Part shown: positions 34,136 to 35,293 of the stretch, piece by piece
Numbering within the stretch: the first letter of the stretch is position 1
Layout: every line of letters starts with the position of its first letter
Origin: Candidatus Tyloplasma litorale
Lineage (GTDB): Bacteria; Bacillota_I; Bacilli_A; Mycoplasmatales; Hepatoplasmataceae
DNA length: 64,000 nucleotides
Assembly (NCBI GenBank): GCA_027943885.1
Contig: AP027078.1
Location: forward strand, 186,001 to 250,000
Direction of reading: 5' to 3'
Translations under genes and position numbers: made by a program
Notes under the pieces: model-generated
What the model saw: only the letters and a program-made list of their open reading frames with translations
The model's database searches: none
What the model was told of the DNA's origin: nothing

Positions 34136-35293
34136 ATGAAATTTAAGGTAATAGAGTTATTTGCAGGTATTGGCTCACAATCAAAATCATTGAAAAATAT
34201 TGGCATTGATTATGAAATAGTTGCTACATCTGATTGAGATATATTTGCAAATATATCATATACATCTGTTCATTATTATAATAAATTAATTAGTAAATTA
34301 AATCAATGAGATAAAGAGTTTAAATCAATAGGAGAGAGAGAGAGAGAGAGAGAGAGAGAGAGAGTTGAAAATGTTCTTTCAAAATTCACTCTTTCTAGAG
34401 ATGGCAAATATCCAATCAAAAATTTTAATAATTTTAATTTAAGAACACTTTATGCATTAGAACAATCCTTAAAAATAAGTAATAATTTTTCTGATATTAA
34501 AAATATCAAAGGAAAAGAATTACCAGAACATAATATAATAACTTATTCTTTTCCTTGTCAAGATTTATCATTGCAAGGATCACAAAAAGGATTAAATGAA
34601 GGTAAAGCTTCTTCTATGCTTTGAGAAGTGGAAAGAATTCTTAGGGAATTAAAAGAAGAAAATAGATTACCTAAATATTTATTAATGGAAAATGTTAAAT
34701 CCTTATTTTCTAATAAATATCAAGAAGGATTTAATAAATGAGTTAAAACACTTGAAGAATTTGGATATACAAATCATAAATTTGTGTTAAATGCCAAGTA
34801 TTTTGATATTCCTCAAAATAGAGAACGAGCATTTATGTTCTCTGAACTTCATCAAAATAAATTCCAAATTCCTTCAAATAATAAAATAACTAATAAAACA
34901 ATTGGTGATATTTTAGAAAAAGATTATGTTTCATGACAACAAACTAAAGGAGAAGTTATTGATTGAAATCCAATTAAAAATAAGAATGGTCTAGCTAAAA
35001 CAAAAATAGAGGGATACACTACTTTTCAATCTGAGACAGCTGTATTTTCTAAAGAATCAATTGCTCCTACTATAACTGCTACTGGTGCACTAAATAGAAT
35101 TAAAGTTATTGAAAAAGAAGGAACACTAAGAATGTTAACTTCTAAAGAACAATGACAATTAATGGGATTTGAAAAATCAGATTGGGAAAAAGTTAATTCA
35201 TTAAATATTGTTCCAGAGTCTAATTTAAAGAAACAAGCTGGTAATTCAATAGTTGTTTCTGTTTTAGAGGCTATTTTTAAGGAGATTAAATAA
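34136..35293 (+). CDS. C5-cytosine DNA methyltransferase 2, phase-variable by a (GA)n tract
   Basis: 385 aa. Motif I ELFAGIGSQSKSL, motif IV YSFPCQDLSLQG (Cys about residue 142), motif VI LMENVKSL, motif VIII QNRERAF, motif X QAGNSIVVSVLEA. Between motifs I and IV, 34332-34364 is an uninterrupted GA/AG dinucleotide run encoding (ER)5. The frame is open at the present length. Gain or loss of one unit gives a stop within 11-26 codons in the two other frames. The HNH endonuclease gene begins 2 nt after the stop, so this is a type II restriction-modification pair. Confidence 0.93.
34332..34364 (+). repeat. Dinucleotide (GA)16 tract within the methyltransferase gene
   Basis: 33 nt of perfect GA alternation, the longest dinucleotide repeat in the window. 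As an ORF-internal dinucleotide repeat, slippage would switch the frame. Confidence 0.97.

Follow-up and report, generated by a model that had tools for sequence, protein, structure and literature searches.

The window, a stretch of 64,000 nucleotides, comes from Candidatus Tyloplasma litorale Fukuoka2020, a member of the Hepatoplasmataceae and gut symbiont of the isopod Tylos granuliferus. The genome paper names defences of type I, type II and CRISPR, and the word 'methyltransferase' is absent from it according to a text search (PMC10928387). Its genome consists of a single 615,622-bp contig (AP027078.1). A gene for a C5-cytosine DNA methyltransferase, containing a long in-frame GA repeat and preceded by a CpG next to its predicted -10 box, is followed by a gene for a putative restriction endonuclease and by a third gene in the same direction (Table 1).

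Table 1. Features of the methyltransferase locus (window coordinates)
Feature	Position	Strand	Basis
CGCG-A-TAAAAT, predicted own CpG target at the extended -10 position	34119..34129	+	conserved in L012 and in related leaders
Predicted CpG-type C5-cytosine DNA methyltransferase, 385 aa, code 4, ON	34136..35293	+	PF00145, M.MpeI match, AlphaFold
(GA)16+G, predicted slippage tract	34332..34364	+	perfect repeat; insertion relative to M.MpeI
Catalytic motif IV, PCQ, residues 140-142	34553..34561	+	alignment; 3' of the tract, lost in OFF frames
Target recognition loops, FQSE...TATGALNRIK, residues 297-323	35024..35104	+	alignment with M.MpeI
Putative restriction endonuclease, HNH_2 / MAG4270 family, 408 aa	35296..36522	+	PF13391 3.9e-5; NF045952
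Third co-directional gene of probable operon	36571..37698	+	

Predicted products of the probable operon

The domain search matched the methyltransferase to PF00145 (2.9e-57), and the structure-database search matched its residues 3-383 to the M.MpeI structures 4dkj and 8c56 at an E-value of about 1e-60. With a mean pLDDT of 90.1 for its AlphaFold model, the protein combines the fold and the motifs of a C5 methyltransferase with homology to M.MpeI over its whole length. M.MpeI is the CG-specific methyltransferase of Mycoplasma penetrans. Its CG specificity and contacts have been assigned to F302, S304, E305, G322, A323, S325 and R326 (PMC10899764). In the alignment F297, S299, E300, G317, A318 and R321 of the T. 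litorale enzyme correspond to F302, S304, E305, G322, A323 and R326, and S325 is replaced by N320. Since the residues responsible for CG specificity in M.MpeI are kept, the T. litorale enzyme is, judging from the alignment, highly likely to be specific for CpG in the manner of M.MpeI and M.SssI. It resembles these two enzymes in whole-length homology and in the conserved residues of the recognition loops, but M.MpeI lacks the GA tract, and the ER insertion and N320 belong to the T. litorale protein. The observed-to-expected ratio of CpG in the window was 0.19, a value simply compatible with CG methylation. The degrees of confidence given here for the switch, the CpG specificity, the promoter and its sign are judgement values, none of them computed.

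An adjacent candidate cognate endonuclease gene, as is typical of type II restriction-modification, is provided by the ORF that begins 2 nt past the methyltransferase stop and matches profile NF045952 with 79.9 bits (cutoff 53). A MAG4270-family neighbour is also present in the congener L012 (60.4 bits). The third gene gave no match in Pfam, NCBIfam or PADLOC. The locus is probably a type II restriction-modification operon, in which a CpG-type methyltransferase and a putative endonuclease of the MAG4270 family would be placed under two layers of control.

Further repeats and defence genes were seen elsewhere in the window. A type III-like pair at 9106-12919 consists of an N6_N4 methyltransferase gene and a ResIII helicase gene; close to the start of the helicase gene is (AAT)15 (10736-10780), a repeat whose length can change with the frame unaffected. 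Positions 17376-30527 form a dense defence region with four GmrSD_N proteins (17376, 19576, 23162 and 28638), a second C5 methyltransferase without a tract (21796-23172) and a P-loop protein (25703). Directly past the start codon of a 152-aa gene matching PADLOC PDC-M50A stands (AAT)7 (30625-30645). Finally, an intergenic T16 run (58075-58090) is found 30 nt before an ORF without Pfam match (58120-59298), a position that suits promoter-spacing phase variation.

The GA tract and the reading frame

(GA)16 is the only GA run of at least 4 units in the window, against an expectation of 0.00 from shuffled sequences. Motif I (FAGIG, residues 9-13) lies on its 5' side and motif IV on its 3' side, in an ORF that is open only if TGA is read as Trp (code 4), and the tract encodes ERERERERER at the start of a helix that is confidently predicted in the AlphaFold model (residues 67-81). 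When tract lengths from n = 10 to 25 GA units were simulated, the full-length protein was obtained at n = 10, 13, 16, 19, 22 and 25. Read-through of the gene thus requires n = 1 mod 3, and with (GA)16 it is currently in frame (ON). One off-phase ends in ...SWKCSFKIHSF with a TAG 11-12 codons past the tract and the other in ...LKMFFQNSLFLEMANIQSKILIILI with a TAA 25 codons past it; loss or gain of a single GA unit truncates the methyltransferase ahead of its catalytic motif. The sequence-only reading had described a perfect (GA)16 at exactly this place in a C5 methyltransferase gene, between motifs I and IV and in frame, and both the alignment and the ORF with TGA as Trp bear this out. It had also expected early stops in the other two frames after about 11 (TAG) and 26 (TAA) codons, in agreement with the simulation. 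Its interpretation as a slippage-switched type II C5 methyltransferase fits the domain search, the structure-database match and the reading frames, and on this sequence evidence we regard the gene as very probably phase-variable. The probable CpG specificity, the adjoining endonuclease gene, the two sister switches, the earlier literature and the self-target promoter go beyond that reading.

A pattern search of the 615-kb genome, used to locate GA tracts and motifs, returned exactly three GA runs of at least 9 units, each in a different type II methyltransferase gene, with two genes ON and one OFF. The second tract lies in a gene for a fused N6_N4+D12 methyltransferase (L009), which is ON and whose end is overlapped by an endonuclease-like gene. 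The third, (GA)24, lies in a gene fusing a Dam-type methyltransferase to a DpnII endonuclease (L010), which is OFF. The system at L009 is similar to MhoVII of M. hominis (GATG/CATC; PMC12898733), likewise a fused N6_N4+D12 enzyme followed by an endonuclease-like gene, but MhoVII has a TA repeat in M2 whereas the T. litorale system has a GA tract at the 5' end. The congener MAG possesses the same three systems, every one with a GA tract: the gene for the CpG methyltransferase, a protein about 70% identical between the two species, has 15 AG units and is ON, the fused methyltransferase gene has about 20 units and is OFF, and the Dam-DpnII gene has 15 units and is OFF. As lengths and states differ in the congener, natural variants exist in both states and with several lengths, in this case between species. 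The natural Dam-DpnII fusion (L010:7765-9440, C1:416764-418440; likewise L168 of the congener) carries its tract near the 5' end, so that one slip would switch both activities, and the leaders of both species have TTTTGATCAATAATT and a second GATC in common.

The survey of the order covered 198 genomes, one per species, in which 175 GA tracts of at least 18 nt were read and their clusters identified by Pfam on representatives. The type III Mod cluster accounted for 54 tracts, HsdS clusters for 44, C5 methyltransferases for 16 and other type II methyltransferases for 8; where a tract was internal to a C5 gene and both gene pieces were readable, 3/12 were in frame. GA tracts are not exclusive to restriction-modification, as two were found in PTS transporter genes of two distant mollicutes (L171:2048-4330, with EIIB/EIIC domains identified, and L229 near 2478). 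Among CpG-type enzymes the GA insert precedes motif IV by about 60 residues in some and by about 20 in others, and further enzymes of this type contain poly(G) or TA runs instead. From these two insertion points and alternative runs, the sequences suggest that repeat switches in CpG-type enzymes arose repeatedly and independently, by convergence. In an orthologous CpG methyltransferase the contig breaks within an AG repeat of 36 units or more (L018:1-72 and the contig end of L098), which indicates that the tract can be long in that family member.

Poly(GA) has been reported for M. pulmonis and M. crocodyli, in both cases in a CpG methyltransferase, and variation in poly(G) length, with matching CpG methylation, has been shown for the enzyme of M. 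agalactiae (PMC9465063). The slippage switch of T. litorale therefore itself is of a type already reported for mycoplasma CpG methyltransferases, namely a C5 enzyme of CpG type turned ON and OFF by a repeat-dependent frameshift. It differs in the position of the tract, about 60 residues before motif IV vs about 20 in the aligned Mycoplasmopsis-type genes, and in its host, an isopod symbiont, unlike the published mycoplasma cases. Moreover, the M. agalactiae gene is described as an orphan with unrelated flanks (PMC9465063), whereas the T. litorale gene adjoins one for a MAG4270-family endonuclease. AG repeats in a mycoplasma methyltransferase gene are also known from MmyCI of M. mycoides, where ON/OFF activity was tied to the AG repeat number (PMC3498834); MmyCI, however, is a type III adenine enzyme (Mod) and not a type II C5 enzyme.

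Two other explanations of the tract were considered. If the OFF frames stayed active, the N- and C-terminal pieces would have to work as two subunits, which we consider very improbable: the profile NF045953 ('N-terminal subunit') matches split relatives strongly and the T. litorale protein weakly, and fragments of M.MpeI and of M.SssI that complement each other have been the subject of a study (abstract of PMC5944983), but an in-frame ATG or GTG is absent between tract and catalytic motif, the sole in-frame start found being a TTG at 34571, past that motif. At least as improbable is a fixed coding repeat serving the ER helix, or an assembly error, with expression not switched; the tract does encode a confidently predicted helix and its deposited length is a single consensus from an assembly built on nanopore reads with polishing (PMC10928387), but both other phases stop early, related genes occur out of frame at their tract, tract lengths and states differ in the congener, and the variants of the M. 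agalactiae CpG methyltransferase correlate with methylation (PMC9465063).

A CpG at the extended -10 position

CGCG occurs once in the window (34119-34122), directly 5' of TAAAAT (34124-34129), and its inner CG stands 15 nt before the methyltransferase ATG. The congener gene (L012) carries the same CGCGATAAAATTAAA. As in CfrBI-type systems, a copy of the enzyme's own predicted target thus overlaps the predicted promoter and is conserved. An upstream TATAAT (34111-34116) was rejected as the -10 box, which would have placed CGCG at the start site: the congener has no upstream TATAAT, and the relatives align on CG-N-TANNAT, which makes TAAAAT the -10 box. The genome contains 14 copies of CGNTANAAT, 11 in ORFs, 2 intergenic and 1 in the methyltransferase promoter, the last being the only copy at most 70 nt before an ORF start. 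A genome-wide search for a CGNTANAAT regulon returned the intergenic copies at C1:402691 and 402729 without an ORF start within 70 nt, and neither rRNA nor any other Rfam family was found at C1:402691-402737. At this intergenic site (L438:1500-1550) a spacing of 38 nt separates two CGnTANAAT motifs.

The leader comparison drew on C5 methyltransferase genes of low-GC genomes, with start codons picked by rule and L332 and L339 counted as CpG-type on their recognition loops. CG was present exactly 1 nt before TANNAT in 21/36 CpG-type leaders vs 0/55 leaders of other C5 enzymes. When a distance of 1-2 nt was accepted, the counts were 23/36 and 1/55 (Fisher 2e-11), and 300 shuffles of the 36 CpG-type leaders gave a mean of 1.9 and a maximum of 7. 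At positions -15/-14 before TANAAT, CG was found in 19/46 CpG-type, 0/48 other C5 and 4/587 control leaders, and TG in 0/46, 14/48 and 63/587, respectively. The motif was first seen in part of these leader data; leaders fetched after the hypothesis had been noted form the cleaner test, and here it was present in 6/7 CpG-type vs 0/20 other C5 leaders. The gene of M.MpeI itself, whose 395 aa align over their entire length, has CGATAAAAT 44 nt upstream. The motif is missing from 13 of the 36 CpG-type leaders, including L097 of the same family, and the -35 elements are weak, with at most 4/6 matches. The motif requires nine changes on a tree built from C-terminal halves and is therefore not the property of one closely related, inherited group. 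It accompanied 20/22 genes with a repeat or split frame vs 3/14 without, the two exceptions among the former (L324 and L327) having uncertain starts; after tree correction the co-occurrence with phase variability was not significant (4:1 independent pairs). We do not advance the wider rule that every phase-variable system has a promoter with a copy of its target, which was examined for GATC and GATG. GATC pairs upstream of Dam-DpnII are kept in the two congeners and three are present in L392, but 22/26 leaders have none; for the MhoVII-like system the excess of GATG was modest and overlapped start codons.

A TGn before the -10 box constitutes the extended -10 element. 5-Methylcytosine and thymine bear the same methyl group, and in genomes with CpG methylation CG is lost to TG through deamination of 5-methylcytosine. 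The retention of CG despite this decay implies selection. Since the position of the CG is conserved, promoter strength should shift with its methylation state, and a methylation-sensitive promoter acting on its own gene, with either sign, appears likely from these comparisons. Concerning a possible sensor, the conserved V454 of sigma (V277 in T. aquaticus) may be in contact with the methyl of T-15, and the G:C pair at -14 is recognised by E458 and R441 (PMC4593229). The T. litorale sigma factor retains the stretch RTVRIPVHMVE.

Proposed regulation in two layers

In the first layer, replication slippage in (GA)n would switch the frame of the methyltransferase, ON at n = 1 mod 3, and the OFF phases would give rise to a peptide of about 84-106 aa without the catalytic motif. 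Translation of the endonuclease, the start of which is so close to the methyltransferase stop that coupling is probable, would fall with it. In the second layer, the CpG one base before the -10 hexamer, replacing TG, would sense CpG methylation. 5-Methylcytosine at -15 may mimic thymine and thereby yield a stronger promoter; an OFF cell that loses methylation would then also shut down the endonuclease, and activation would delay the endonuclease after switching ON.

The sign of this second layer is less firm than its existence. That methylation strengthens the promoter is conceivable without reaching the level of a probable claim; activation is slightly favoured and repression by methylation is almost as likely. 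A serious competitor, equally plausible at present, is an ordinary switch combined with a promoter CpG that serves as a repressor site, which the methyltransferase binds or methylates in homeostatic negative feedback. A motif beside the -10 box equally suits blocking of the polymerase, and in CfrBI, AhdI and LlaDII promoter methylation represses or limits the methyltransferase (PMC12707154), which argues against the positive sign. However, the exact replacement of TG by CG together with a weak -35 points to an extended -10 contact rather than to a generic operator, and under repression the loss of methylation would derepress the endonuclease in OFF cells. CfrBI, AhdI and LlaDII resemble the T. 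litorale system in having their own recognition site in the methyltransferase promoter, but none of them is given as phase-variable and the T. litorale site replaces the TG of an extended -10; CfrBI differs in addition by its divergent, overlapping promoters, with methylation repressing the methyltransferase (PMC12707154). The same source calls a dependence of endonuclease transcription on methylation logical, and apparently rarely used (PMC12707154).

A promoter CpG without any function in regulation, of which only G at -14 is needed and C at -15 is neutral or inherited, seems unlikely. In its favour, G-14 has the stronger of the specific contacts within the extended -10 (PMC4593229), and some of the sampled leaders come from near relatives. 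Against this stand the nine changes on the tree, which exclude one inherited block, and the depletion of CpG, where deamination of 5-methylcytosine would give TG. Furthermore, the 19/46 CpG-type leaders with CG compare with 1/46 for TG, AG and GG together, whereas among the other C5 leaders TG occurs in 14/48 and CG in none.

Returning to methylation as an activator, the most general form would be a mollicute-wide 'methyl-CpG extended -10', CGnTANAAT, in which 5-methylcytosine at -15 replaces T for the sigma contact without a regulator and creates an epigenetic memory over the slippage switch. We advance this tentatively, as a rather doubtful extension; if true, the mark would raise the promoter directly via sigma and keep the endonuclease silent in unmethylated OFF cells. 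A search of the open-licence literature found no report of a 5-methylcytosine-responsive extended -10 or of autoregulation by a CpG methyltransferase, nor was a self-target CG substituting for TG in an extended -10 found described there, and the passages of PMC9465063 on the mycoplasma systems make no mention of a promoter CpG.

In summary, the repeat switch carries a theme familiar from mycoplasmas over to an uncultured symbiont of an animal, and each of the three long GA tracts in its tiny genome belongs to a type II methyltransferase gene. The promoter motif would offer a simple, testable answer to the question how a restriction-modification unit can turn off its methyltransferase and yet spare the cell from its endonuclease. 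Should 5-methylcytosine indeed be able to take the place of the thymine in an extended -10 element, cytosine methylation in bacteria could act on promoter strength directly by way of sigma.
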